From IMG/VR virus record IMGVR_UViG_3300001533_002415, positions 1-34,940 of that record: a DNA stretch of 34,940 bases. One strand, given 5' to 3'. Position numbers and translations under genes: made by a program. This document shows positions 1 to 34,940 of this stretch, in pieces (within the stretch, counting starts at the first letter, position 1; every line of letters begins with the position of its first letter). The notes beneath the pieces are model-generated. The model worked only from the letters and a program-made list of their open reading frames with translations. It did no database searches and was not told the DNA's origin. The stretch comes from a virus.

Positions 1-88
1 CAGCCCCCTTCCATCGCTTCGTGACGCCTTCCCCCCGGGGGGGCAGGCAAAGCCAACCCTCACCCTCGTTTCCTCTCCCGCACGCGGG
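1..88. other. left host flank, intergenic-like
   Basis: No coding region is visible in these 88 bases. They hold GC-rich runs (seven C then seven G around 31-43) and, at 71-88, the first part of what looks like a host palindrome (CTCTCCCGC then GCGGG) that stops at the phage end. It does not continue the fucosidase frame found on the other side of the phage. Confidence 0.5.
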
Positions 89-138
89 TGTATACCAAGC
101 CGCAAAAAATTTCGGCTCAGGACAAATTAAATGAGAAT
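89..138 (+). repeat. late-side phage end (transposase-binding terminal repeat)
   Basis: The end starts with TG at 89-90, then TATACCA at 91-97, then 19 bases and a 22-bp block at 117-138. That block is identical, inverted, to 34789-34810 at the other end, and the TATACCA-N19-block spacing is the same at both ends. The 22 bases at 95-116 match the outer unit of the other end at 14 of 22 positions, so each end appears to hold two adjacent 22-bp units. Paired sites at both ends are what MuA-type transposases bind. The exact terminal base is inferred from the TG rule. Confidence 0.8.
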
Positions 139-3968: not shown

Positions 3969-4397
3969 CTATGCCTCCGGGATGTCCAATTTGAATTCGG
4001 CCGGATTGATGGTGACCGTTTCCTCGTCCTGGACTGTCTTCAGTCCCCAGTTCCGGGCGAAATACAGCTTCAATGATGTCACGCCGCGAACCGCCCAACC
4101 GTAGACAGTGTTTGGGCCGCCGGTGGCCGTCCACTCGATACCGGTGCCGGTGTTGTAGACAGACACGATCGGATCGGCTTCGGTCGCCGCCGCGAAATTC
4201 GCCTTTGTGAGCGTCTGCTTGGCCAAACCGTTTGTGGTGATCTCGGTCAGATCGGCATTGACCGTATCATCGGCGATAGTGACATCGGTAGAAAACAAAA
4301 ATATTTCCTTATTCTCCGGCGTCGCGTCATCCTTGAATACGGCGTCCATCATTTCCTGCATGCCCTCGATAAGCGCCTGTGCGCTTCCTGCTGCCAT
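3969..4397 (-). CDS. hypothetical late structural protein
   Basis: This is 142 residues from the ATG at 4397, which has GAGG 6 bases upstream. An upstream ATG would translate the palindromic repeat at 4416-4440 and is unlikely. The N-terminal third is helical (QALIEGMQEMMDAVF); the rest is beta-rich with TVYGWAVRGVTSLKLYFARN, a pattern seen in phage proteins of virion tips. It sits between the lysis genes and the tailspike. The family is not recognised. Confidence 0.6.
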   Translation of the reverse strand: MAAGSAQALIEGMQEMMDAVFKDDATPENKEIFLFSTDVTIADDTVNADLTEITTNGLAKQTLTKANFAAATEADPIVSVYNTGTGIEWTATGGPNTVYGWAVRGVTSLKLYFARNWGLKTVQDEETVTINPAEFKLDIPEA

Positions 4398-4415
4398 AGT
4401 ATACCTCGTTCGTTT

Positions 4416-4548
4416 GTAGGGGCACAATGCCTTGTGCCCGTTATAATATCCCTAATCCGTATTATTCCCCCTTAAAAGGGGGGACGCCGGCGTTAGCCGG
4501 AGGGGGGTCTTGTTTTATTGTAGGGGCATAAAATATTATGTCCCTATT
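4416..4548. repeat. palindromic repeat cluster B-A-B
   Basis: A type B copy (4416-4440, GTAGGGGCAC..GTGCCC), a type A copy (4465-4511, CCCCCTTAAAAGGGGG plus CCGGCGTTAGCCGG and AGGGGGGTCTT) and a diverged type B copy (4520-4548). The cluster fills most of the gap between the two neighbouring genes. Confidence 0.85.
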
Positions 4549-4583: not shown

Positions 4584-5066
4584 TTACGAGCCTACCCAAA
4601 TACGGAACACGTCCTTGCCCTCTTTGACAATATGGCCAAGCTCTTCCCTGGATATCTTGTTATCCTCTAAGGCGGCGCCCAGCACAGTCATAAATTGGCC
4701 TGCCTCCACAAACGTCTTCTTTAGTTTTCCGGATAGTGCTCCCAGCGCCCCGGCGATGATACCCACAATGACCGTGATTATCATCGCGATTACTTCAGTC
4801 GATAACCAGTTCTTTACGGTCCCGAATATCCCGGCCTCGTATACCGGCCCATCCATATAATTCCCCCCTAACAGGGGGGACACGGCGTAGCCGAGGGGGG
4901 TCTCTGCGGTCTGATTGCTCGCGGCCATCAAATCATAGGGGCGCAACGCATCGCGCCCAATCTCCGCCGTCATCTGTCCGGCATCAGGCGGCCCGAAAAA
5001 CACCGCGATGTCGAACAGCGCGACAGCCGCCAACATCAGCATGATAATGAAAAGTACAAGGCGCAT
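4584..5066 (-). CDS. holin-like two-span membrane protein carrying translated repeats
   Basis: This is 160 residues from the ATG at 5066, which has AAGGAGG just upstream. A first membrane span lies at about residues 2-22 (LVLFIIMLMLAAVALFDIAV) and a second at about 95-115 (VIAMIITVIVGIIAGALGAL). A charged C-terminal domain follows (EDNKISREELGHIVKEG). The loop between the spans is made partly of read-through palindromic repeats: RDALRPYDLMAAS from a type B copy and ETPLGYAVSPLLGG from a type A copy. It follows the endolysin gene, so a holin is the natural guess, although the family was not recognised directly. Confidence 0.6.
   Translation of the reverse strand: MRLVLFIIMLMLAAVALFDIAVFFGPPDAGQMTAEIGRDALRPYDLMAASNQTAETPLGYAVSPLLGGNYMDGPVYEAGIFGTVKNWLSTEVIAMIITVIVGIIAGALGALSGKLKKTFVEAGQFMTVLGAALEDNKISREELGHIVKEGKDVFRIWVGS
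4861..4960. repeat. type A and type B repeats inside the holin-like gene
   Basis: Type A occupies 4861-4902 and a diverged type B copy (GGGGCGCAACGCATCGCGCCC) occupies 4936-4960. Both keep the reading frame open on the minus strand and add about 30 residues to a loop between two membrane spans. Confidence 0.85.
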
Positions 5067-5089
5067 AATGGCCTCCTTTTTGTTAAGGT

Positions 5090-5590
5090 TTACGCCCGCC
5101 ACCGGTATGGCTCCGGACGCATGTCAAGGTGAATGCCCCAGGTATAAAGCCCTATTCCTCCGAAATTCAGCGAGAGTGCTATCTTGTAAAGCTCACGCCG
5201 TTTATCCTCATCTGTCTCTCCCAGATCAGTTGCGAAGCGCATGTGCCATGAGTTTTCAGTCCCGCCGATCTCTTTGTTGTGATCGGGGCACCGGTACCCC
5301 GAATTAACCATTATAGGCTCTCCATAGTCCCGCCTGAGCCGTTCCAGTAGTTCCATATGGATATAGAAGCCCGGCGTAATACGGATCCGTTCACAGCACG
5401 GGCAGACAAGTTCCTCTAAACGGAAATGTTCGGTGACATGGCGATTTGCTATAACATCCCCTTCAATATCGCCCCCCCCTAACAGGGGGGATACCGGCTT
5501 TAGCCGGAGGGGGGTCTTGTTTATGAACGGTATTTCCACCGGCTCAATTGCTTGCTTTTTTGGCAGCAAGAACGATATCCAATTTCTCAT
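5090..5590 (-). CDS. endolysin, M15-type D-Ala peptidase
   Basis: The 166-residue protein is a predicted zinc peptidase that cleaves peptidoglycan stem peptides during lysis. The peptidase M15 signature is clear: NSGYRCPDHNKEIGG at 96-110, zinc ligands H116 (ENSWHMRFATD), D122 and H154 (GIHLDMR). Residues about 26-45 (NKTPLRLKPVSPLLGG) come from a type A palindromic repeat inserted in frame between the N-terminus and the catalytic domain. The hydrophobic N-terminus (WISFLLP) is too short for a normal signal peptide. The ATG has GGAAG 7 bases upstream and overlaps the end of the upstream membrane gene by 47 bases. Confidence 0.85.
   Translation of the reverse strand: MRNWISFLLPKKQAIEPVEIPFINKTPLRLKPVSPLLGGGDIEGDVIANRHVTEHFRLEELVCPCCERIRITPGFYIHMELLERLRRDYGEPIMVNSGYRCPDHNKEIGGTENSWHMRFATDLGETDEDKRRELYKIALSLNFGGIGLYTWGIHLDMRPEPYRWRA
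5471..5518. repeat. type A repeat inside the endolysin gene
   Basis: A full-length type A copy (C-run, TAACA, G-run, CCGGCTTTAGCCGG, AGGGGGGTCTT). It is read in frame on the minus strand as TPLRLKPVSPLLGGG. Confidence 0.9.
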
Positions 5591-5798
5591 TTATCGCTTC
5601 CAGACTTTCTTTCAAAATTCGAATTTCAACCGTATTCGTGACAATCTGATCCCGCGTCCGCTCCGTTTGAAACAGCATGCCGCCCATGAATCCGCCGCAT
5701 ATCGACGTGATCACCAGTATGATGGAAATCATCCACCTGTACCGGTCCTCACGGGTTTTTGCCTGGCAAATCTGTTCCCTCAGATCGTCTTCGCTCAC
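5544..5798 (-). CDS. small membrane protein with coiled coil, lysis cassette
   Basis: This is 84 residues from a GTG at 5798. AAGGAG lies 8 bases upstream and the GTGA overlaps the stop of the preceding gene, which decides this start. A charged N-terminus is followed by a single span (MISIILVITSICGGFMGGML, about residues 23-42) and a C-terminal heptad region (VEIRILKESLEAINEKLDIVL). The topology and its place before the endolysin suggest a holin, spanin or XhlA-like lysis accessory. This is inference from context. Confidence 0.65.
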   Translation of the reverse strand: MSEDDLREQICQAKTREDRYRWMISIILVITSICGGFMGGMLFQTERTRDQIVTNTVEIRILKESLEAINEKLDIVLAAKKASN

Positions 5799-6024: not shown

Positions 6025-6576
6025 TTAGAAAGCTGCGAATTGTAAACTTATATCATGGTTTCCTGCACTTCCAGACCGTGATCCACGTGCCGACAAACGC
6101 GTTCCGCTTGCGATCTTTCGTCTTGGAAGCACTGGTATAATCATACATTCGATGACACCAAATAACTGAAAGTAGCTTGTTCGGAAAAAAGTCGTCTCGC
6201 TCGACGCGGCGCCAGTGCCTAATTCTATGACCGCGCGCTGATCTGAAGTCGGTTGCGGATTCGTAATTACAATATGCGCCAGGTACAAATCTGCTGACAA
6301 GCTCGCGATCAGTTGCGTCCATGGACAGAAGGAAAGTGAACCATAGAAATTAATACTTGTAATTGAGCCGTCCTCAACGAATTCAGCGTTGCTGTGCCCC
6401 AATGTGGCAAGCGCCTCGAGGGAATGATTCCCCCTGCCGAAATCACTCACGTCAGACACTGCCAGCGTTTGGCCCAGAATCGACCCGTCGGCAACCACGC
6501 TGTCGAGCGTCACCGTATTGGAAAACGATTTTCGCCAATATTGTAAGATCGATTCGATGTTAGCGATTTCTAACAT
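6025..6576 (-). CDS. tail-tip protein, paralogue of its upstream neighbour
   Basis: A 183-residue protein clearly related to the product of 6578-7132: shared strings include NTVTLDS.VADGSILGQ, LAVSDVSDFGRGNHSLEALAT, IASLSADLYLA and ELGTGAASSETTFFR, at the same positions. The pair arose by tandem duplication and has diverged to roughly half identity. The beta-rich centre suggests a virion component. Function unknown. Confidence 0.7.
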   Translation of the reverse strand: MLEIANIESILQYWRKSFSNTVTLDSVVADGSILGQTLAVSDVSDFGRGNHSLEALATLGHSNAEFVEDGSITSINFYGSLSFCPWTQLIASLSADLYLAHIVITNPQPTSDQRAVIELGTGAASSETTFFRTSYFQLFGVIECMIIPVLPRRKIASGTRLSARGSRSGSAGNHDISLQFAAF

Positions 6577-6577
6577 G

Positions 6578-7132
6578 TCAAAGCTCCGTAAAAACCAAAC
6601 CTACCCAAACGGTTTCATTTGGATATGATTTCGAAAACCGTCCGCTTATGCGTGTGTCTGACGGGAGGGGAATCTGTGGTAGAACAGGGAACAGATATGT
6701 GCTTCTGTCGTCAGATACTATGAAACTGGCCCTGAATATTGCCGTTTCGCTTGATGCCGCCCCGGTTCCTATTTCTATAACAATTTCGCAGGAATTGTTC
6801 GGATCAGTGACGCCGACGCATACCAAACAGAGCGACCGGTCTGCCGACAGGCTGGCATCGATTTGCGTCCACGTGCCTGAGCTGGTGATGTTGGTCATGG
6901 TCGGAGTCCCGGTCGTTCCCTCTTCGAGATAGGACGTGTCATCGCGGCCCATCGTGGCAAGAGCTTCCAGCGAATGGTTCGTCCGGTCGAAATCGCTCAC
7001 ATCCGACACTGCCAGAATCTGGCCCAGAATCGACCCGTCAGAGACTTCGCTGTCAAGGGTTACGGTGCTCGATAGCAGTGTTCGCCATTTCTGTTTTAGG
7101 CCTTCTATAAATGGTATGGTGATACTGCTCAT
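6578..7132 (-). CDS. tail-tip protein, paralogue of its downstream neighbour
   Basis: A 184-residue protein with an N-terminal helical segment (IEGLKQKWRTLLSS), then STVTLDSEVSDGSILGQ, a conserved HSLEALATMG stretch and a beta-rich C-terminal half (SCEIVIEIGTGAASSETAIFR). Its ATG overlaps the stop of the upstream gene (7129-7132). Position after the hub protein implies a distal tail or fibre adaptor. No known family was recognised. Confidence 0.7.
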   Translation of the reverse strand: MSSITIPFIEGLKQKWRTLLSSTVTLDSEVSDGSILGQILAVSDVSDFDRTNHSLEALATMGRDDTSYLEEGTTGTPTMTNITSSGTWTQIDASLSADRSLCLVCVGVTDPNNSCEIVIEIGTGAASSETAIFRASFIVSDDRSTYLFPVLPQIPLPSDTRISGRFSKSYPNETVWVGLVFTEL

Positions 7133-7512
7133 GATACCGTCCTTGTGCTGCCCGTTACATTATTCGAGCCGTCATAGCTGAATGTTTCCCTAATAGTTGT
7201 TGCTACCGGATCGGTAATTTCGACTTCAACATACTCGACCCTGCCGCCGTTCCCGTCGTCATACGAGACTGTCATCGTAGCGATAGTAGTATCAGAACTG
7301 TTTTTATAAGTGACTGTACTGATCCGGTTGCTTCCATCGCGGGAGACTGTATAGGAGCCAGCCAGCGGCAGAAACCCGCCGAAATACGGTAATGCCTCAA
7401 GCCGCTGATCGATCTCATTGGTGTTCTCCGTCAGACTGTCGTAATCGCTCTTCTTCGTGCCGTGCCCGATAGTAGCCGACAAGTCTGAAGTAAAACTATA
7501 ATCTTTACTCAT
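7129..7512 (-). CDS. small tail protein, beta-rich
   Basis: The 127-residue protein starts with a helical stretch (ENTNEIDQRLEALPYFGGF) followed by repeated short strands (STVTYKNSSDTTIATMTVSYDDG, ETFSYDGSNNVTGS) that resemble RHS/YD-like beta repeats. Similar short proteins are common next to phage tail hubs. It is coupled to the following paralogous pair by an ATGA overlap. The role is inferred from position only. Confidence 0.65.
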   Translation of the reverse strand: MSKDYSFTSDLSATIGHGTKKSDYDSLTENTNEIDQRLEALPYFGGFLPLAGSYTVSRDGSNRISTVTYKNSSDTTIATMTVSYDDGNGGRVEYVEVEITDPVATTIRETFSYDGSNNVTGSTRTVS

Positions 7513-7531
7513 CTATATACCTTCCTTATTG

Positions 7532-7616
7532 TTCCCCCCTAACAGGGGGGATACCGGCGTCAGCCGGAGGGGGGTCATCTTTTCTCTCAATACCGGCGTC
7601 AGCCGGAGGGGGGTCT
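7532..7616. repeat. type A repeat plus a second half copy
   Basis: A complete type A copy at 7532-7577 is followed at 7590-7616 by a second copy of its right half only (CCGGCGTCAGCCGG and AGGGGGGTCT). They fill the gap after the hub gene, and the second copy touches the hub stop codon. Confidence 0.9.
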
Positions 7617-9181
7617 CACCACCATACGCTCTGTTTCGACGTTTCGTCTTCCGGGTCTGCCAGCCCGTCATCGTCCGTCCAAAACCCCTGCTTCGCACGC
7701 TCATCGGCGGTCGCGCTCGAATAGTCAGGCGCGTCGTCATCAACCCAATAACCCGGCAAGATGTGCTGAATGGAATCATACCCGTATATCGTGCAGCTCA
7801 TGTCCCGGAAGTGTTTCGATATCTCACGGACTAACAGTGGCCTGTTCGTGTAATGGGCGTACGTCAGTCCTATTCGGTCGGAGAGCTGCGTCAGTATGCC
7901 GTCTCCAAGCGCCGTAAACTTGATCACATCGATTGCCCTGCTGTACAGAATGATCAGGTGCGCCGCCAGTGCCCGGACATTGCTCTCCTCATACAGCCAG
8001 TTAAAATCTATCGTCCTCGATATCACCTGTAGGACATCGTCCTGTATTGCCTCATTGTCCTCCTGGGCGAATGACTGCCACGTATCCGCGACAGGGTCAT
8101 AGGCGTAGTTGCATTTGATGCGGTTCGCGTAGAGGCCCTCCGGGTCAGATTCGACTTGAAGAGATCCGGATATGATAGTCGTATCGTCGAATGTCCGGTC
8201 GATGTTTACTTGCGGTATTCTGTTTTTGACTGTATACTTGTCATCATGTATATAAAGGTCAAAGAGATTCTCTATCGCCAGCTCCTCAATCAGCGTGTCG
8301 GTCGATATTTCATCGGCGATATATCGTCGGCACTTAAAATCAGCGAGGTCCATCGCCAGTTGATCATACGAGTCGCCATCAATATTGTCGGTTGATATCC
8401 CGATGTAATTCAACTGTATGTCCCGCAATACCAGCGAAGGGTTCTCTATCAGCCCGCCGGACACCTTGCCCTTCACAACAGCCGTGACCTCATCGTTTTG
8501 CGGATCGTACGAGCTTATCGTAAAGGTCGCCTCATCGAGGTCTTCATTCGAATGGCTGACTTCCTCATCGTTCTTATAGACTTGTACTATATCCTGTATG
8601 GCATGGTCGGCGATTTTGAACTGGTTTGTGGTCGTATCGATGCAGGTGACAGGTATAGGCACATGGACAAGGAAAGACCAGTCCCCGTATACGATGGGGA
8701 TTGGAGTCCCTTCCGCGCCGTCCTCTAAATTCGGATAGTTTGTCACCCAGTATTTGTTTTCGGGCAGGTCAACCTTGTCCTTGTTCCGCGCGTCCCGGAG
8801 TTCTATGCGGACCTCGGTCCGGTCAAATCCGATGCCGCCGGGAAATTTGATTACCCCGTGAAAGTCAATCGTATAGTCCGCGATGTCCCGCCCGACGCCC
8901 ACATAGACAAAAACATTCCGGTTTCCCCACGTATAGTCCTGCAGAAGCCCCCGGATGGTCAAATCGGCGTCCTCTAACGTGATAGTCAGCGTCGACGCCC
9001 GCTGCTTCGGCGCCGTGAACGAGGAGAACGCCCGCTGTAGAGTCGATATCAGAAGCCGCCCCTCATAAAACTGCCCGTTGCTCATCGAGAGGTGCTGGTC
9101 GGCGTAATACAGTGTCAGGCCGTCCAGTTCGATCTGTATGAGGACATGCGCGTCCATGACCGGTGTCGGCGTCAGCGTCAT
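7616..9181 (-). CDS. tail hub protein
   Basis: A 521-residue protein, starting at the ATG at 9181 that overlaps the stop of the upstream gene by 4 bases. The N-terminal 150 residues (DAHVLIQIELDGLTLYYAD, RASTLTITLEDADLT) have the pattern of tail hub/baseplate proteins that contact the tape measure tip. The central part is beta-rich, and the C-terminal part (NVRALAAHLIILYSRAIDVIKF, DRIGLTYAHYTN) matches the hub fold in siphophages of the Mu-like group. It is the largest gene after the tape measure, as expected. Exact family membership was not checked. Confidence 0.7.
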   Translation of the reverse strand: MTLTPTPVMDAHVLIQIELDGLTLYYADQHLSMSNGQFYEGRLLISTLQRAFSSFTAPKQRASTLTITLEDADLTIRGLLQDYTWGNRNVFVYVGVGRDIADYTIDFHGVIKFPGGIGFDRTEVRIELRDARNKDKVDLPENKYWVTNYPNLEDGAEGTPIPIVYGDWSFLVHVPIPVTCIDTTTNQFKIADHAIQDIVQVYKNDEEVSHSNEDLDEATFTISSYDPQNDEVTAVVKGKVSGGLIENPSLVLRDIQLNYIGISTDNIDGDSYDQLAMDLADFKCRRYIADEISTDTLIEELAIENLFDLYIHDDKYTVKNRIPQVNIDRTFDDTTIISGSLQVESDPEGLYANRIKCNYAYDPVADTWQSFAQEDNEAIQDDVLQVISRTIDFNWLYEESNVRALAAHLIILYSRAIDVIKFTALGDGILTQLSDRIGLTYAHYTNRPLLVREISKHFRDMSCTIYGYDSIQHILPGYWVDDDAPDYSSATADERAKQGFWTDDDGLADPEDETSKQSVWW

Positions 9182-9927
9182 GCGACCTTCTCCTCGAATG
9201 TGATCGGCACATCGCCGTATTCCAATGCCCGAAGCGTCTGAGTAAGCGGCGTGGTTATTTTGCAATAAAGCGTATCTTCGTTCGGATAGTCGTCCGGGTC
9301 AAGGGCGAAAACAAGAGGGTGTATGTTCTTGACATCTCTGAATATATCGATGAGTTCTTCCTGCTGGTCACGGTCGATGTCGGCGAATGTCACATCGAAC
9401 ACCCGGTAAACATCACGCTCGATGGCGTACCCCTGGCGTCCCTCTGATTCCTGAAGTATTGACGGGTCGATAAGCTGTTTTTGAACTTCCTGTGTCACAT
9501 TGACCCCAGGCTCGTAGTATTCTCCGGCGCATATTCTGCCGGCCTCGATATATCCGTCAGGATTCGAGCCGTCGGCGATTGTGATATGCCAGTACCGGTA
9601 TGTTTTGTCCAGGAAAAGAATGATGACATGATCATCGATAGTAAGCGCCTGGCTGTAGTCCGGATCGCCCCACGAATCGGCGGTATGTCCTTGCAGCAAA
9701 ACCGTAGCGTCGCCGGTCAGATTGTGCCCGAATATCGCAAGCATCGTGATCTTCGTCGCGGCCCCCAAATCAAACGTGATCCACTCCGCGCTGTCGCCCG
9801 TTGTCCGCCACTTTTTCGCTATGAAATCGTGTACGGCGTTATCGTCCGGAAGCCCGGTCACCTCGCTCGAGGAGGTTATCGTCCCGCTGTCGAACAGAAA
9901 GTCATAAAGTATCCGTACATTGCTCAT
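9178..9927 (-). CDS. distal tail protein with discoidin-like domain
   Basis: A 249-residue protein. Residues about 30-130 look like a discoidin/F5-F8 type carbohydrate-binding sandwich (SAEWITFDLGAATKITMLAI, then GHTADSWGDPDYS, then YRYWHITIADGSNPDGYIE). The C-terminal part (VYRVFDVTFADIDRDQQEEL, PITFEEKV) resembles distal tail proteins that join the tube to the hub. It lies directly after the tape measure gene. Carbohydrate binding would help attachment to the host surface; this is inferred from the fold pattern. Confidence 0.7.
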   Translation of the reverse strand: MSNVRILYDFLFDSGTITSSSEVTGLPDDNAVHDFIAKKWRTTGDSAEWITFDLGAATKITMLAIFGHNLTGDATVLLQGHTADSWGDPDYSQALTIDDHVIILFLDKTYRYWHITIADGSNPDGYIEAGRICAGEYYEPGVNVTQEVQKQLIDPSILQESEGRQGYAIERDVYRVFDVTFADIDRDQQEELIDIFRDVKNIHPLVFALDPDDYPNEDTLYCKITTPLTQTLRALEYGDVPITFEEKVA

Positions 9928-9947
9928 CTATAAATCCCTTCCTTTCA

Positions 9948-10040
9948 TTCCCCCCTAAAAGGGGGGATACCGGCTTTAGCCGGAGGGGGGGTCTTCTTTT
10001 CTCTCAACACCGGCGATCGTTTCCCCGCAGGGGCGCAACA
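9948..10040. repeat. type A repeat plus partial copies between tape measure and distal tail genes
   Basis: A full type A copy at 9948-9994 is followed by remnants of a second A copy (CAACACCGGCGAT near 10005-10017) and half of a B copy (AGGGGCGCAACA near 10029-10040). Nothing else is visible in this gap. Confidence 0.8.
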
Positions 10041-14082: not shown

Positions 14083-14120
14083 TATTCTGCCCTTTCCGCT
14101 TTATCATTAATCAATGTTTG

Positions 14121-14147
14121 TAGGGGCGGACCTGTGTGTCCGCCCTT
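14121..14147. repeat. type B repeat
   Basis: A diverged type B palindrome (GGGGCGGACCTGTGTGTCCGCCC) between the tail tube gene and the chaperone gene. Confidence 0.85.
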
Positions 14148-14151
14148 AAAC

Positions 14152-15276
14152 TTACGTAAATTTCAATGTCAATTCGTCTTCGCCATCGTCGCCCAGGCAT
14201 TTCCCGGTCACAGATATCGTGCACTCATCGGTCTCCGGAACCGTGACGTTCGGAATGTCGAACTCGACCTGATTCGCGTCGATAGTCAGTATCGATCCGG
14301 CGGTGTTCCCCAGGACAACCTGAATATCCTGCGTGGTAAACCGCTTGGCGTCGTTCAGCCACTTGGCCGCGCCTTTTTCGAAATACAGGTCGAAATTGCA
14401 CGTGACCTCCCTGAACTCCGGATGCCGGTATCCTCTGGCCGAGATGGACCCGAATTCATCGTTCCGCATCGAAACTTTTTGGTCGACATCGAATCCGCCG
14501 CTGGTGATATAGACCGTCACTTCGCCTATCTTGAATGATCCCACGATCACCGGTATGATGCTGCCTGCCGTGGTCGGGGTGATCGGGAATGGCACAATAG
14601 CAGATCCGCTGTCTGCGGTGCAGCTTTCGTCCACAGTGAGCGTATCCGTGTCGTAGTCGATTGCCGTAATCGTGAACTCTGTCGTCAGGTCGGCGACCTT
14701 GACAACCATGCCGACCGCGAACTGACGGGCGTCACTGACTACGATGGACGCGCTGGACGCCGCTGATGCCAGCGTGTCGCTACCGCAGAGGTAATGGTCC
14801 TTCGCTTCTCCGGAAAACGTGAATTTCGGTTCGTCGCCGCCGCCGAATTTCAGTCCGAATTTTGAGGGCACACAGCCGCTGAGCGCTTCGCGGTGCGGGC
14901 CAATGTCACGGAAGAGGCTCAGGCTCTTCGTCGGCTCCGCAAGAAGGGAATACGCGACACTCGTATCGGGTACGATGGTTTCCGTGCCGAACAAGTGCTC
15001 TAAGAGAAGCGCGCAGTCCGGCGCGCTGTCTTCGGTTCCTGACGGCAGAACGTACATCTCAAGGTCGAACTCAGCGCTCTTCCGCCCGGTGACTTTGCTG
15101 ATGATCGACCGCGTGCTGCCTTTTTCGTTTCGGTCTTTCCGTTCCTGCGAGAAGGTCATCCCGCTGGAAAGAACCTTCATTGCGTCTCCGGCGGTAGGAT
15201 GTACCAGTGTCCCGAACGTTGTTTCTTCAGTCACATAGACTATCTCCTCGCGTCCGTATGCGTATTCTGTGCTCAT
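14152..15276 (-). CDS. major tail tube protein
   Basis: A 374-residue, beta-rich protein placed between the tail completion genes and the chaperones, the usual locus of the tube protein. It contains the N-terminal string EEIVYVTEETTFGTLVHPTA and a long alternating strand pattern typical of tube folds. Residues about 175-245 (ASSASIVVSDARQFAVGMVV to SCTADSGSAIVP) look like an inserted carbohydrate-binding or Ig-like domain. No tail sheath gene is adjacent, in keeping with a non-contractile tail. Start overlaps the previous stop by 4 bases. Confidence 0.8.
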   Translation of the reverse strand: MSTEYAYGREEIVYVTEETTFGTLVHPTAGDAMKVLSSGMTFSQERKDRNEKGSTRSIISKVTGRKSAEFDLEMYVLPSGTEDSAPDCALLLEHLFGTETIVPDTSVAYSLLAEPTKSLSLFRDIGPHREALSGCVPSKFGLKFGGGDEPKFTFSGEAKDHYLCGSDTLASAASSASIVVSDARQFAVGMVVKVADLTTEFTITAIDYDTDTLTVDESCTADSGSAIVPFPITPTTAGSIIPVIVGSFKIGEVTVYITSGGFDVDQKVSMRNDEFGSISARGYRHPEFREVTCNFDLYFEKGAAKWLNDAKRFTTQDIQVVLGNTAGSILTIDANQVEFDIPNVTVPETDECTISVTGKCLGDDGEDELTLKFT

Positions 15277-15455
15277 GTTTCATCGCCTCCCAATGTAGGG
15301 GCAGGCCTGCGTGTCTGCCTTTTCACTTCCCTGAAACCAGGTAATTTCAAAAGCTGCTTCCCGACGAATTCCGGAAAATCCTTCTCTTCCCCGGTATGCA
15401 TGTACCCAAACCCCTCGATTCGCTTATTGTCTTTGCCGGTATATTTAATGATCAT
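15273..15455 (-). CDS. small tail protein with C-terminus from a type B repeat
   Basis: A 60-residue protein between the tail terminator and the tube gene, overlapping both (ATGA at each side). The first 45 residues (MIIKYTGKDNKRIEGFGYMH) resemble small phage proteins with a single beta sheet found at this position. The C-terminus (KRQTRRPAPTLGGDET) is encoded by a type B palindrome at 15295-15322 and so may be a recent addition. Its role is unknown. Confidence 0.65.
   Translation of the reverse strand: MIIKYTGKDNKRIEGFGYMHTGEEKDFPEFVGKQLLKLPGFREVKRQTRRPAPTLGGDET
15295..15322. repeat. type B repeat at the end of a small tail gene
   Basis: A diverged type B copy (GGGGCAGGCCTGCGTGTCTGCC) lies in the coding sequence of the 60-residue tail protein and encodes part of its C-terminal tail. 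Confidence 0.8.
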
Positions 15456-15916
15456 TGCTCGGTCCTCCCGTCCACGTGGTATCGTATGGCAAGCTCCGTC
15501 TCGAACAGGCAGAGGTCGCCGAATAAGTTCGAATGATCTACTTGAAAGGTCTTGAACGTTGCGGACGCGTATCCGCCCCGCGTCTGATCGGCCATAGCCG
15601 CTATTCCCACATCCTGCATAAGCCGGTTGAGCGCGGCGCCTTCGTCGTCTGCCGGGCGGTCCATCACGCCCACGATTCCGACCTTCATTGTCCGCCGGTC
15701 ATGATAGCCGTGATGGTTCTCGATATCCTCACTGCCCCCGGTCGCGATGATAAGGAGCGCCGGTTTCTCCTCTCCCTCAAAATCGGTCGGCACCGCTGGC
15801 ACCCGTCGCACTGTTTTGATTTCCGTCCAATACGGGTCGTCGCCGTCTATGCCTTCTAAGGCGCTCTTCAGATTCTGGAGTATGAGTTCCCGTTTTGATT
15901 CGTCTGCCACGTCCAT
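15452..15916 (-). CDS. tail terminator/completion protein
   Basis: The 154-residue protein (ELILQNLKSALEGIDGDDPY, PALLIIATGGSEDIENHHGY, LFETELAIRYHVDGR) has the alternating alpha/beta pattern of phage tail terminators that cap the tube and join the neck. It lies between the gp10-like neck protein and the tube gene, the order seen in many siphophages. It overlaps the following gene by 4 bases. Confidence 0.7.
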   Translation of the reverse strand: MDVADESKRELILQNLKSALEGIDGDDPYWTEIKTVRRVPAVPTDFEGEEKPALLIIATGGSEDIENHHGYHDRRTMKVGIVGVMDRPADDEGAALNRLMQDVGIAAMADQTRGGYASATFKTFQVDHSNLFGDLCLFETELAIRYHVDGRTEQ

Positions 15917-15925
15917 TCCTTTTTG

Positions 15926-15970
15926 TTCCCCCCTAAAAGGGGGGGATACGGCGTCAGCCGAGGGGGTCTT
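15926..15970. repeat. type A repeat
   Basis: A type A copy (CCCCCCTAAAAGGGGGGG, GGCGTCAGCC, AGGGGGTCTT) between the gp10-like and the tail terminator genes. Confidence 0.9.
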
Positions 15971-15973
15971 CTA

Positions 15974-16438
15974 TTATTGCTTCTCTATCAGCAGTGTAAC
16001 TTCGCGCCCGAACAGCCGACCGATTGCCGCCTCGTTGTCCTTTGCCGATTTCGACAGCCATTCCCGTTTTGGTATGTTCACCTGCGTTGTCCGTATCCAT
16101 GTTCCGTCAATTTGGAATACCAGGTATTTCCCTTTTTTTGGTTTGATGATCCCGCCGAATTCATGGACAGCCGCGTACACAACCGGACTGCCGACCCGTC
16201 CGATGATTTCATTGCCAAACAAACCTTTCCGTTCGACTGAGGTCTTTACAGATTGCTGAAGGCGGTGTGTTTGTGGATTAAGTGTCACTCCGGCAAGGTG
16301 ATGCGTTTTGGCCCTGATTTCTATGAGCGTGCACGCCTGGACGACCGTCGAGTACACCATTCCGGGAGTATTCTTCGCGATCCGCTCAACGCCTTTCCGC
16401 AGCTCTTCGCCGCCTTCGAAATCAAAACTTGCCTGCAT
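15974..16438 (-). CDS. HK97 gp10-like neck protein
   Basis: The 154-residue protein begins with FEGGEELRKGVERIAKNTPG, then VYSTVVQACTLIEIRAKTH, a Gly-rich central part (GRVGSPVVYAAVHEFGGIIK) and a basic C-terminal helix. The central string is a hallmark of the HK97 gp10 family (head closure or tail completion). Its start touches the stop of the connector gene by one base (TAATG-type overlap). Confidence 0.85.
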   Translation of the reverse strand: MQASFDFEGGEELRKGVERIAKNTPGMVYSTVVQACTLIEIRAKTHHLAGVTLNPQTHRLQQSVKTSVERKGLFGNEIIGRVGSPVVYAAVHEFGGIIKPKKGKYLVFQIDGTWIRTTQVNIPKREWLSKSAKDNEAAIGRLFGREVTLLIEKQ

Positions 16439-17004
16439 TATCGCCTCGAATACCGGCGCTCCAGCCCGGCCATGATTCGTTCCTGATCCTGCGGCCCGCG
16501 ATTATAGGTCACGCCACCGCCCTGAATGTTCTCTCCGCTTTTGATAAGCGCCTTCTGCCCTCTCGCGGAGAGGTAGTATTCCAGCGCTACGATCTGCATG
16601 ATCCCCCGTCTGATATCGCCCGGCGCCGTCTCATACCCTGCGGTATAGCTCACCAGTACACTTCCCGGCCCGCCGTCGAAGGGATATCCGGTGGCCATTC
16701 TGACAATACCGCTGTCCGTATCGAACGTATAATCATCGCTGTCGAGTTCTTCATCGTCCACCGTGATTGAGGAGATGGCACTGACCGGCATATTCTTCAG
16801 CAATATCGCCAGCTTGCCGCCGTGGTGCCGTTCGTCCTCGTAGTCCGCTGACTTGATAACGCGGTTCAGCCGTGTTTCCAAAGCGTCTGACCAGTCGTTG
16901 ATTGCCTGTTGAAGGAAATCATCTTCGTCGTTCGTGGTCAGCTTTAGATAGCGCTTGATCTCATCGAGTTCGATAAGCGCGTTGTCGGTTGCGTCGATTG
17001 CCAT
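16438..17004 (-). CDS. head-tail connector protein, gp6-like
   Basis: The 188-residue protein starts with LIELDEIKRYLKLTTNDEDD and continues with AINDWSDALETRLNRVIKS, the helical opening of gp6-like adaptor proteins. A beta-rich part (PVSAISSITVDDEELDSDDY) and a helical part (IRRGIMQIVALEYYLSARG) follow. Twelve copies of such proteins usually dock under the portal. Gene order (capsid, small proteins, connector, neck) fits. Confidence 0.8.
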   Translation of the reverse strand: MAIDATDNALIELDEIKRYLKLTTNDEDDFLQQAINDWSDALETRLNRVIKSADYEDERHHGGKLAILLKNMPVSAISSITVDDEELDSDDYTFDTDSGIVRMATGYPFDGGPGSVLVSYTAGYETAPGDIRRGIMQIVALEYYLSARGQKALIKSGENIQGGGVTYNRGPQDQERIMAGLERRYSRR

Positions 17005-17021
17005 TTCTCTTCCTTATCGTT

Positions 17022-17093
17022 CCCTCCTAACAGGGGGGACACGGCGTAGCCGAGGGGTCTTCTTTGTTGGGGCGCAATGATTCGCGCCCCTTT
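17022..17093. repeat. type A and type B repeats
   Basis: A type A copy at 17022-17061 followed by a type B copy at 17067-17093 (GGGGCGCAATGATTCGCGCCCC). Together they fill the gap before the connector gene. Confidence 0.85.
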
Positions 17094-17099
17094 TCGTCA

Positions 17100-17399
17100 T
17101 TACTTCCCGGCCTTGTCTGTTTTTCCGGTTTTCTCTGTGTTTTCAGTCGCGTCTTCCTCATCTGGATACCGCATCTTTCCCGCTTCCAAATCGATGACGC
17201 CGCCTGTTTTCTTCACAACCTCGAACGGCTTCTCGGATGTTTCGATATGACCGCCGCCGATTTTTTTCAGCGCGCCGATAATATTTTTCGGGACTTCAAT
17301 TCCGGGGCCGCCCCGGACAATTTTCACGCCGCCGGTTGATATACTTTGCGGCACATCCTGCCCTTTGTTCTGCGGAGGTTTGATTCGTACGTAAGTCAT
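17100..17399 (-). CDS. small hydrophilic head protein
   Basis: The 99-residue protein has an N-terminal basic stretch (YVRIKPPQNKGQ), a Gly/Val-rich centre (GGVKIVRGGPGIEVPKNIIG) and a highly charged, low-complexity C-terminus (ATENTEKTGKTDKAGK). It sits between the capsid and connector genes. Small proteins here are often head-tail joining or decoration factors. No family recognised. Confidence 0.65.
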   Translation of the reverse strand: MTYVRIKPPQNKGQDVPQSISTGGVKIVRGGPGIEVPKNIIGALKKIGGGHIETSEKPFEVVKKTGGVIDLEAGKMRYPDEEDATENTEKTGKTDKAGK

Positions 17400-17440
17400 T
17401 GTCCTGCCCTTTCTGCTTAGTCAACCCATTCATTATGCTT

Positions 17441-17564
17441 GCCCCCTTGGGGGGAAAGTGGCGCGTCAGCGCCGAAAGGGGGCTGTAATCCCGCCGTATT
17501 GTTCCCCCTTGGGGGGGCACGGCGTCAGCGGGTTCTTGTAGGGGCACAAAATCTTGTGCCCCTT
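17441..17564. repeat. two diverged type A copies and one type B copy
   Basis: Diverged A copies at 17441-17483 and 17511-17536, then a B copy at 17537-17564 (AGGGGCACAAAATCTTGTGCC). They occupy all of the 168-base gap between two head genes, and no gene is visible in it. Confidence 0.8.
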
Positions 17565-17567
17565 ATA

Positions 17568-26046: not shown

Positions 26047-26070
26047 CTCATTCCCTATGGTTATTTTTTG

Positions 26071-26186
26071 TAGGGGAGCGATGTTCCGCTCCCCATATAA
26101 TTTATCCGTATCATTCCCCCCTAACAGGGGGGACACGGCTTTAGCCGAGGGAGGTCACCCGTAGGGGCATAAAATCTTATGCCCCT
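26071..26186. repeat. B-A-B repeat cluster
   Basis: Type B at 26071-26094 (AGGGGAGCGATGTTCCGCTC), type A at 26114-26156 and type B at 26161-26186 (GGGGCATAAAATCTTATGCC). They separate the accessory genes on either side. Confidence 0.9.
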
Positions 26187-26188
26187 GT

Positions 26189-26290
26189 CTATAATAACAC
26201 CTCCCACATCAACCCGCCTATCATCAGCCCCAGGAGAAACGCCCCCAATGCGATGACGATAAACCCGATAATCACCGCTCCACTTTTCAT
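26189..26290 (-). CDS. 33-residue membrane peptide
   Basis: A single hydrophobic span (VIIGFIVIALGAFLLGLMIG) after MKSGA. Its ATG overlaps the TGA of the upstream gene (ATGA), a strong sign of real, coupled translation, and its stop abuts a type B repeat. The function is unknown. Confidence 0.55.
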   Translation of the reverse strand: MKSGAVIIGFIVIALGAFLLGLMIGGLMWEVLL

Positions 26291-28086: not shown

Positions 28087-28121
28087 ACTGTCCCCTTTCT
28101 TTTAATAATCCCATCCTTATC

Positions 28122-28203
28122 GTTCCCCCCGACACCGGCGTCAGCCGGAAGGGGGTCTTGTAGGGGCACAACACTTTGTGCCCTTTATTCCTTGTGCCCT
28201 TTA
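28122..28203. repeat. type A, type B and partial B repeats between transposition genes
   Basis: Type A at 28122-28159 (shortened C-run), type B at 28160-28186 (AGGGGCACAACACTTTGTGC) and a half B at 28190-28203. They lie in the 119-base gap between the transposase and ATPase genes. Confidence 0.85.
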
Positions 28204-31805: not shown

Positions 31806-31819
31806 ATCATTTCCGTTTC

Positions 31820-31890
31820 GTGGGGGCACAAAACCTTGTGCCCTTTTCCGTATTGTTTCGTTTCGTAGGGGCACAACACCTTGTGCCCTT
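31820..31890. repeat. two type B repeats
   Basis: Type B copies at 31820-31846 and 31865-31890, in the gap before the winged-helix gene. Between them is only TCCGTATTGTTTCGTTTC-like spacer. Confidence 0.9.
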
Positions 31891-31895
31891 TTTTC

Positions 31896-32297
31896 TTATG
31901 CCCCCGTCCCTTGTGTTCCCTGAAACATCTCCCCCTGCACTTCTTTCAAATATTCCCGAACCGTTAATTTCTTCAAAACCGCCGCCCTGGTCAGAATCGA
32001 TATGGCCAGATGCCGCAGCGTCGCCTCGTTCGCGTCCGCCTCCTCCTGGGTGGCGATCATGTAATACCCGGACGGACGGCCCAGGGCGGAACCGATCCTG
32101 ATATGATGGTGCTCTATCAGGCCCTTGACTATATCACGGACAACGCGGGGAGATATCCCTGATGACGAGGATATATCGTCTACCGATATCGCGTTGGGTC
32201 TTCCGACACGCCGCTTTATCAGGGCAAGGATCTGCTGGGAATCCGTATCCATCGAAAGCGCGTCGAATATGTCAAGCTGTGTTCCGCCCTGAACCAT
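31896..32297 (-). CDS. winged-helix DNA-binding protein
   Basis: This is 133 residues from the ATG at 32297 with AAGGAG 7 bases upstream. The central domain (ALIKRRVGRPNAISVDDISS, then SSGISPRVVRDIVKGLIEHH and RIGSALGRPSGYYM) is a winged helix with recognition helix and wing. An alanine-rich helical C-terminus follows. Early-region location suggests a regulator or a replication-linked DNA-binding protein. Confidence 0.75.
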   Translation of the reverse strand: MVQGGTQLDIFDALSMDTDSQQILALIKRRVGRPNAISVDDISSSSGISPRVVRDIVKGLIEHHHIRIGSALGRPSGYYMIATQEEADANEATLRHLAISILTRAAVLKKLTVREYLKEVQGEMFQGTQGTGA

Positions 32298-32313
32298 TGT
32301 CCTTCTCCTTCTG

Positions 32314-32416
32314 TTGGGGCACAACACCTTGTGCCCTTTTCCCCCGTAGGGGCGGACCTGTGTGTCCGCCCTTATTCATTTGGGGTCACGTAGGGGCATA
32401 AAATATTATGCCCCTT
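32314..32416. repeat. three type B repeats
   Basis: Type B copies at 32314-32340 (GGGGCACAACACCTTGTGCC), 32346-32372 (GGGGCGGACCTGTGTGTCCG) and 32391-32416 (GGGGCATAAAATATTATGCC), with little spacing. Different loop sequences show they are different subfamilies rather than one triplicated unit. Confidence 0.9.
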
Positions 32417-32426
32417 TTTACCGCCA

Positions 32427-32969
32427 TTATCCCTTCACCGTATCGAAACTCACCGCCGGTTTAGTTGCCTGTACGGATACAAAATCACGCACCTTCTTGG
32501 AAATCGGGCTGTCGGCGTCGGCGATCAGCGCGAGGAAATCCTTTGTGTGACGGACCGTTTCCTGTTTCTGCACCAGCCGTGAAAAATCCCGGCCCAAATG
32601 CTGTTCGATTTCAGGAATGTCCTCGGTGTTCACCGCGAATGTCGGGATAGTGTGAAACATCTGGTCGAAAATGGGGCCGAGAATGGCTTTGATTTTCGGG
32701 ATATCGGCCTCATCGTATGTGATCTTTTCCCCGAATTTCACCGTGACTTCGCCGTCTTCGCTGCGGAATGTGGCGCTCTTCATACCGGTCATCTCGGCTT
32801 GAATTGCGGCAAACGGAATGATTGCCTCGGTGTTTTCCTTGATCTTGGTGTTGATCGTGGCAATGCTCCGTTTGAGCGAGAGTCCCTTCCTGATGATCGT
32901 CCCGATCCTGTTCCCGGTCTTTTTCGGAAGCTCCACTTCCTTTTTTCTGTTTCCCAATGCTTTTGTCAT
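32427..32969 (-). CDS. early-region protein, possible Gam analogue by position
   Basis: This is 180 residues from the ATG at 32969 with GGAGGG 5 bases upstream; the longer reading frame would translate two type B repeats (HKILCPN twice). The basic N-terminus (GNRKKEVELPKKTGNRIGTI) leads to helices and a short beta part (SATFRSEDGEVTVKFGEKIT). The rest is helical. Size and position resemble Mu Gam, a DNA-end binding protein, but the Gam pattern is not clear. I do not recognise the family. Confidence 0.6.
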   Translation of the reverse strand: MTKALGNRKKEVELPKKTGNRIGTIIRKGLSLKRSIATINTKIKENTEAIIPFAAIQAEMTGMKSATFRSEDGEVTVKFGEKITYDEADIPKIKAILGPIFDQMFHTIPTFAVNTEDIPEIEQHLGRDFSRLVQKQETVRHTKDFLALIADADSPISKKVRDFVSVQATKPAVSFDTVKG

Positions 32970-32982
32970 GGTTCCCTCCACG

Positions 32983-33036
32983 TTGGGGCACAAAATCTTG
33001 TGCCCATTTCCGTTGGGGCATAAAATCTTATGCCCT
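32983..33036. repeat. two type B repeats
   Basis: Type B copies at 32983-33005 (GGGGCACAAAATCTTGTGCC) and 33013-33036 (GGGGCATAAAATCTTATGCC), next to each other just upstream of the 180-residue gene. Confidence 0.9.
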
Positions 33037-33178
33037 ATTCCCCTTTGCGAAAAATGCTCCTCACCTTTCCCTGTTGTATTTTTTTCGTATACCACGTTCC
33101 TATCACCAGCACGGAAACTATTCCCGCGACATACGATCCCAGCGCGATAAAACATATCCATCCCATATAATCCCACAT
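33035..33178 (-). CDS. 47-residue membrane protein
   Basis: The ORF starts at an ATG with GGAAAGGAG 7 bases upstream, an excellent site, and ends in TAG. A single span (GWICFIALGSYVAGIVSVLV) is followed by a basic tail (YTKKIQQGKVRSIFRKGE). Small membrane proteins in phage early regions can affect host membrane or block superinfection; no evidence for either. Confidence 0.6.
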   Translation of the reverse strand: MWDYMGWICFIALGSYVAGIVSVLVIGTWYTKKIQQGKVRSIFRKGE

Positions 33179-33200
33179 GTCGATTCTCCTTTCCGTTTCC

Positions 33201-33226
33201 GTAGGGGCACAAAATCTTGTGCCCTT
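33201..33226. repeat. type B repeat
   Basis: A type B copy (AGGGGCACAAAATCTTGTGC) whose right edge touches the stop codon of the HTH gene at 33225. Confidence 0.9.
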
Positions 33227-33608
33227 ACCCGATTTCCTCGATAAGTTTATATAGCCATTGCCTGCTGATACCCATTTCCTTTGCTATCTGCGATTTCGGG
33301 GTCCCTATTTGAAGATGAATCCTGATTTCTTTCAGCATTGACCGCTTGTCCGTCTTACGAAGCGTGATATTATTGTTTTTGAGAATGTGCCGCACATACC
33401 TGCCTGATAAATTGTGCTTCTGGGCGATGTCGGCGAGCTTCATCCCCTGATTGCCGTCTCTACATATCTCTATATCACGGTCTTCTCTTCCATAAACGTC
33501 TCCTTTTGAGCCTCGCTTTGATACTTGAAATCGCCCGCCTTCCGGATTTTCATCGAACATTCTTTTTATTGTATCTTTTGAATATCTTTTGTAAATCAGG
33601 CCTGCCAT
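33225..33608 (-). CDS. protein with two helix-turn-helix motifs
   Basis: The 127-residue protein has a first HTH at about 53-75 (GMKLADIAQKHNLSGRYVRH) and a second at about 105-125 (TPKSQIAKEMGISRQWLYKL). Both fit the helix-turn-helix pattern of resolvases or Mor/C-type activators. The N-terminus is basic. It is probably a transcription regulator in the early operon, possibly the middle-gene activator (Mor-like); the precise family is uncertain. Confidence 0.7.
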   Translation of the reverse strand: MAGLIYKRYSKDTIKRMFDENPEGGRFQVSKRGSKGDVYGREDRDIEICRDGNQGMKLADIAQKHNLSGRYVRHILKNNNITLRKTDKRSMLKEIRIHLQIGTPKSQIAKEMGISRQWLYKLIEEIG

Positions 33609-34622: not shown

Positions 34623-34788
34623 TTTTCCCTCGTGTAAATAATCGTGCTCTAACATGGCATGTTGTATTTTTCATCACATGGATATAACGTGCCATGTTAG
34701 TATCATCTGCCACCTGTCTATAACTATGTTCTTTCCCGCCACGTTTTTTCATCAGCAATCAAAAAAAAATCCCTTCTCCTTCTTAAAT
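34623..34788. other. non-coding early-side end region
   Basis: No convincing gene is seen in these 166 bases. They hold the inverted repeat at 34649-34700, a run of nine A at 34761-34769 and an AT-rich stretch leading to the terminal repeats. Confidence 0.6.
34649..34700. promoter_or_regulatory. inverted repeat, possible operator or terminator
   Basis: 15-bp arms (34649-34663 and 34686-34700) match with one mismatch and are separated by 22 bases. Each arm is itself nearly palindromic (AACATGGCATGTT type), so it may be two binding sites rather than one hairpin. It lies just beyond the repressor-like gene, where it could end its transcript or act as operator or transposition enhancer. Confidence 0.5.
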
Positions 34789-34841
34789 ATTCTCATTTAA
34801 TTTGTCCTGATCCTTTATTTATTGTGTCCTGGTATATCACA
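34789..34841 (-). repeat. early-side phage end (two tandem transposase-binding units)
   Basis: Read on the minus strand from 34841: TGTGA, TATACCA (34836-34830), with the outer 22-bp unit at 34832-34811 directly joined to the inner unit at 34810-34789. The two units share CAGGACA and then AT-rich tracts. The inner unit is identical to 117-138 at the other end. The terminal base is uncertain by a few positions (TGTGATATACCA here, TGTATACCA there). Confidence 0.8.
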
Positions 34842-34940
34842 GTGAACCGGATATCACCCGCGACCTGGGTTGTCCATGGCCGGGTGCCGTAGACCGCTTC
34901 GCCGTTGATTCGGAGCCAGTCACCAAGCGCGAGGAGCGGA
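34842..34940 (-). pseudogene. host GH29 alpha-L-fucosidase, C-terminal part cut by the phage
   Basis: The minus-strand frame reads PLLALGDWLRINGEAVYGTR, then PW and VAGDIRFT. GDWLRINGEAVYGTRPW is the hallmark of GH29 fucosidases, near the end of the catalytic domain. After RFT the frame runs into the phage end and stops within it. The upstream part lies outside the window. The enzyme would release alpha-L-fucose from host-derived or algal glycans. Confidence 0.85.

Follow-up and report, generated by a model that had tools for sequence, protein, structure and literature searches.

Hairpin repeats at the gene junctions of a Mu-like phage and their probable capture into open reading frames

The phage and its flanks

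The window analysed here is the virus record IMGVR_UViG_3300001533_002415 over its whole length of 34,940 bases. The record is a Mu-like phage with short flanks. It carries Mu-type transposase and DNA-transposition-protein genes as well as portal, terminase, major head, tape-measure and tail genes, nearly all of them on the minus strand, and has inverted arms at 91-141 and 34786-34836. The right flank (34837-34940), when translated, resembles what we take to be the C-terminal part of an alpha-L-fucosidase, and a comparison of its 35 residues with Pfam gave no match. A D12-type adenine methyltransferase is apparently split into an N-terminal part (573-1130) and a C-terminal part (255-509), ORF 1636-2547 contains two exact tandem 30-nt copies at 1658-1717, and the neighbouring ORFs 6025-6576 and 6578-7132, with 75% identity across 147 nt, resemble a pair of duplicates that have diverged.

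Two families of hairpin repeats

Models built from the phage's own copies and searched with nhmmer detect 12 copies of a repeat A (8 full and 4 shortened) and 18 copies of a repeat B, with element lengths of 28-59 nt. The E values are 1e-16 to 1e-20 for full A copies and 1e-5 to 1e-8 for most B copies. Repeat A consists of a double hairpin and, after it, a leader, AAYRATAMGGAWGG, which is conserved as well. Because this leader is retained in copies that do not adjoin a start, it seems to be part of the element. B is a single hairpin with a stem of 8-9 bp. Its end tetranucleotide is CTAC on the sense strand (GTAG on the other) in 12 of the 18 copies, and the remaining copies have GTTG (four), GTGG (one) or ATAG (one). 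The B stem is 92.6% paired with compensatory changes on both sides in four of its nine pairs, and its covariation score was reached by none of 500 shuffles. Every one of the 12 A and 18 B copies scores higher on the minus strand, the gene strand, than on the plus strand. The A and B repeats are not a product of chance. A main role of B as terminators of the phage genes was rejected because the T-run after the hairpin lies on the strand opposite to the genes.

A GTDB scan with the A repeat gave a 99.98% copy of the same phage as its sole match; it belongs to the bin 'delta proteobacterium MLS_D', in which two contigs hold this near-identical copy. A search for the A repeat in IMG/VR gave no match. 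The left flank (window 1-90, beyond the phage end) holds a further A-style palindrome, CAGCCCCCTTCC...CCTTCCCCCCGGGGGGGCAGGCAA. MLS_D was rejected as the source of the repeats: outside the phage contigs the bin contains no A or B copy at up to three mismatches to the patterns used, and a search of the bin for the left-flank palindrome pattern gave no match either. The latter result suggests that the true host may be another organism.

Placement of the copies

The copies and clusters that lie between genes are as follows.

4415-4547, minus strand: B-A-B cluster (4415-4445, 4455-4512, 4519-4547), intergenic
7521-7615, minus strand: A and partial A, intergenic, with the start of gene 7129-7512 8 nt downstream
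9938-9994, minus strand: A, intergenic, with the start of gene 9178-9927 10 nt downstream
14119-14149, minus strand: B, intergenic, with the stop of gene 14152-15276 2 nt before
15915-15973, minus strand: A, which takes up the space between genes 15974-16438 and 15452-15916
17009-17095, minus strand: B followed by A on the sense strand; the two take up the space between genes 17100-17399 and 16438-17004
17428-17566, minus strand: B and two degenerate A, intergenic
26069-26189, minus strand: B-A-B cluster, intergenic
28112-28188, minus strand: B and shortened A, intergenic
31819-33227, minus strand: eight B of the early region (31819, 31864, 32312, 32345, 32389, 32981, 33011 and 33200), intergenic with the chosen starts

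When gene starts are chosen by their Shine-Dalgarno (SD) sequences, on which both the non-coding share and the placement of the copies depend, non-coding DNA makes up about 8% of the phage and holds 26 of the 30 copies. The other four lie in ORFs, every one of them at a gene junction. The copies group into 16 clusters, 13 of which are non-coding, and non-coding DNA amounts to 5% after removal of the elements; the binomial P for 12 or more clusters in it is 4e-13. The usual plan is that B often stands behind a stop codon and A often ahead of a start, as at 17009-17095. The copies in ORFs match this plan: the endolysin copy lies 24 nt past the stop of the preceding gene, the B copy of the tail ORF lies 17 nt ahead of the next start, and those of the holin-like ORF are ordered B, then A, then start, again as at 17009-17095.

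The elements contain few stop codons in the sense direction. A B copy has one to three stop-free sense frames (mean 2.3), and a full A has one of three (two in one copy). Read-through in two of the eight full A copies is what chance allows. The upstream frames of the genes at 3969, 25654, 31383, 31896 and 32427 also cross B copies, and these genes have other starts downstream of the repeats, mostly backed by an SD sequence. Longest-ORF calling would therefore make five more genes seem to contain repeats. A survey of viral contigs for GTAGGGGC gave 43 palindromes with a stem of at least 8 among the 120 stretches listed; among these matches most were single copies, and 14 lay inside ORFs of at least 100 residues on either strand. 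Among the matches listed, the repeat density of this phage is thus unusual and the presence of copies in ORFs is not. In a different endolysin neighbourhood (L016, 400-1600), which has an endolysin homologue and small membrane ORFs, palindromes of the form AACAAGGGGTTGTAACCCCTTGTTA lie at gene junctions.

The A copy in the endolysin ORF

The endolysin region contains three features.

5090-5590, minus strand: endolysin ORF; Peptidase_M15_3 at residues 55-151 (Pfam 4e-16); PHROG 894 endolysin (1.5e-25)
5461-5519, minus strand: A (double hairpin and leader) inside the endolysin ORF; nhmmer E 3.8e-18
5544-5798, minus strand: small membrane-protein-like gene upstream of the endolysin; GTG at 5798, SD AAGGAG

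The A copy at 5461-5519 is in frame and encodes TPLRLKPVSPLLGGG, as an earlier reading made from the sequence alone had it (hereafter the sequence-only reading). That reading had suggested an alignment with relatives, and all the aligned homologues do without the segment. Its placement of the segment in an N-terminal linker, in contrast, does not hold: homologues of close architecture all begin at the peptidase domain, and residues 1-49 form an N-terminal extension that has no counterpart in any homologue. The extension of about 49 residues is composed of about 15 residues whose DNA also carries the end of the preceding gene, a spacer, the A copy and about 10 further residues; gene 5544-5798 shares its last 47 nt, in another frame, with the beginning of the endolysin ORF. 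In phage-type homologues from the phylum search the protein opens with MGDLS..F or a similar sequence, only a few residues ahead of the first Phe that is conserved in the domain.

The in-frame starts of the endolysin are ATG at 5590, TTG at 5569 and GTG at 5539, and the next one comes only at residue 79, within the domain. A search for ATG, GTG or TTG between the A copy and the peptidase domain found none, so translation must cross the A copy unless it begins at a rare start such as ATT. Judging from the reading frame, translation across the A copy is likely. A strong SD sequence is absent at all three starts, and the GTG at 5539, 4 bases past the upstream stop, could be used by translational coupling.

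The SxH...D...HxD metal-ligand motif of Peptidase_M15_3 is present, with H116, D122 and H154 invariant in the alignment. The endolysin is one residue shorter between H116 and D122 than the aligned homologues. A search for its relatives in IMG/VR found none, and a search of 155 genomes of the order of MLS_D and 395 of its phylum gave distant homologues only.

The repeats in the holin-like ORF and the small tail ORF

Downstream of the endolysin, two copies lie in a holin-like ORF.

4584-5066, minus strand: holin-like ORF of 160 residues; ATG at 5066, SD AAGGAGG
4850-4906, minus strand: A in the holin-like ORF, the leader of which holds ATG 4856; nhmmer E 2.3e-17
4936-4963, minus strand: B (GTAG-type hairpin) in the holin-like ORF; nhmmer E 4e-4
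4584-4856, minus strand: alternative holin-like product of 90 residues with one hydrophobic segment; start in the A leader, AGGGGGG six bases upstream

The name holin-like reflects size, hydrophobicity and position, which suggest rather than establish that the product is a holin. Family models gave no match to the ORF, no relatives were found in IMG/VR or by tblastn against phages, and a search for the 90-residue form across the phylum of MLS_D gave no convincing match. By eye, one hydrophobic stretch precedes the repeats and one follows them. The SD at ATG 5066 is among the best of the phage, and the frame is stop-free from there to the end of the ORF. The sequence-only reading had both repeats adding residues to a loop of the holin. 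The in-frame passage of A and B, which adds about 29 residues, is borne out, and the loop is one of two readings of it. In the other, the holin would start downstream of the repeats, for which ATG 4856, right after the A hairpin and with the SD-like AGGGGGG ahead of it, is a candidate, so that a 90-residue form could be made. The ORF can thus give the long fusion, the short product or both.

A further copy lies in the tail region.

15273-15455, minus strand: small tail-region ORF of 60 residues; weak Geobacillus phage match
15294-15324, minus strand: B supplying the C-terminal tail of this ORF; nhmmer E 0.004

This B copy encodes residues near the C-terminus of the ORF, in agreement with the sequence-only reading. 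Residues 13-47 match a 48-residue Geobacillus phage protein weakly (E 0.8); the match stops about where the B copy begins, and the Geobacillus phage protein itself terminates shortly past it.

Probable capture of junction elements and alternative explanations

The explanation that we favour as probable is that REP/MITE-like hairpin elements in the gene junctions of the Mu-like phage have occasionally been captured into ORFs. Two small families of such elements have accumulated in the junctions, all in one orientation, and were probably copied in trans by a host enzyme. Because the intergenic gaps are very short and the elements contain few sense stop codons, the reading frame of a neighbouring gene sometimes runs on across a copy. 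The endolysin would have lost a start close to its peptidase domain, as the homologues have it, and translation would now begin upstream, in or just past the end of the preceding gene, and cross A, there being no other canonical start. The C-terminal tail of the small tail gene's product comes from the B copy at its 3' edge. In the holin-like ORF, a small membrane ORF, which has a strong SD, is followed by B and A and then by the holin-like part, the possible start of which lies in the A leader. No transposase able to move A or B was found; the MLS_D bin carries two Y1_Tnp genes, the examined flanks of which hold no A or B copy, and the scan covered part of the phage ORFs. No close relative of the phage without the repeats was found, and hence no empty site was seen.

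The sequence-only reading had instead likened the repeats to Rickettsia palindromic elements (RPEs), that is, to a protein-coding element that persists through in-frame insertion at tolerant sites of proteins. The A copies are open in both the endolysin and the holin-like ORF in the same frame, TPL..SPLLGG, and the endolysin homologues are without the repeat segments. However, a full A has only one essentially open sense frame, so that the same frame is expected twice, and in the endolysin and the tail ORF the copies fall outside the region shared with homologues. The three cases on which that reading was built are a selection from 30 copies, 26 of them intergenic, and the four in ORFs occupy gene junctions rather than tolerant linkers and loops, with in-frame passage expected from the open frames. 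We consider such an insertion element very unlikely. It is highly improbable, in turn, that the ORF calls are merely over-long and the copies untranslated, with the holin made from 4856 and the endolysin made from ATT 5467 past the repeat or left as a decaying gene. The same over-extension in five other ORFs, a G-rich SD-like tract ahead of ATT 5467 and the residue missing between His116 and Asp122 would fit. However, translation very rarely starts at ATT, none of the metal-ligand residues H116, D122 and H154 has been lost, and ORF 4584-5066 has a strong SD at 5066 and no stop up to the holin part.

Another possibility is that A is a functional leader module, in which two hairpins and a ribosome-binding leader set the translation of the downstream gene. 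Through an internal start supplied by A, the holin would then be made in a 160-residue form with an additional N-terminal membrane segment and in a 90-residue form, on the model of dual-start holin/antiholin genes. The leader AAYRATAMGGAWGG is conserved beyond the hairpins and contains AAGGA in copies directly ahead of a start (7521, 9938, 15915 and 17009) and ACGG in copies farther from one (4455, 26104 and 17494). The predicted RNA folds of 7521 and 9938 pair a 5' C/U tract with the SD, and ATG 4856 of the holin lies within the leader with AGGGGGG six bases upstream. However, the copies are few and starts would in any case be expected to have an SD nearby, the fold energies are only about 1-2 standard deviations from those of shuffles, B copies stand alone at several junctions, and no holin homologue was found to tell the older start. 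We regard a leader module as unlikely. An extended form, in which A is a mobile leader of a hairpin pair and a Shine-Dalgarno sequence placed upstream of many genes that created a dual-start holin, so that the repeat sets lysis timing, appears quite unlikely.

Relation to known repeats and implications

Two starts that give two forms with differing N-termini are a feature of dual-start phage holins such as lambda S. The holin-like ORF would resemble lambda S in having two possible starts, but the putative second start is repeat-borne, and an entire hydrophobic segment would be added in the long form.

REPs of many bacteria, catalogued in 2013 (Di Nocera, De Gregorio, Rocco; PMC3733652), are mostly intergenic, and some lie within ORFs including N- and C-termini; those in ORFs are commoner at N-termini, where translation may really begin downstream. 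Like the GTAG-tagged REPs, B forms a short hairpin, one end of which carries GTAG or a variant of it, has a stem of 8-9 bp (6-13 bp in those REPs) with alternative complementary residues, and lies mostly between co-oriented genes with a minority in ORFs or at ORF termini (PMC3733652). Unlike them, B resides in a phage at very high density with no RAYT partner identified, and its copies keep strictly to one orientation whereas head-head and tail-tail dimers are common among GTAG REPs. The main text of PMC3733652 makes no mention of phage. QMITE1 and QMITE2 of Coxiella burnetii are likewise small hairpin elements that overlap the ends and 3' regions of ORFs and occasionally lie in frame, but they are longer (150-400 bp) and chromosomal (PMC5896051). 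RPEs share with the phage elements that palindromic repeats are read in frame in proteins. They are about 150 bp long and lie in frame within ORFs at unusually high frequency, and in-frame fusions of MITEs are not unusual (PMC10969869). The phage elements, compared with RPEs by length and placement, are 28-59 nt long and lie outside ORFs in 26 of 30 cases. The phage repeats thus resemble known bacterial hairpin repeats more than a special peptide-inserting element. A non-exhaustive search of the literature found no report of comparable repeat capture in phages.

Should the A leader drive translation, this phage would provide a natural series of almost identical leaders before different genes, useful for testing repeat function. 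A would in that case be a portable leader for translation and would lend the holin a second start, a lead that comes from few copies. In repeat-rich phages, annotation by longest ORF counts too much protein as repeat-encoded. Short gaps and open frames suffice for hairpin repeats at gene junctions to turn coding, without a special insertion mechanism.
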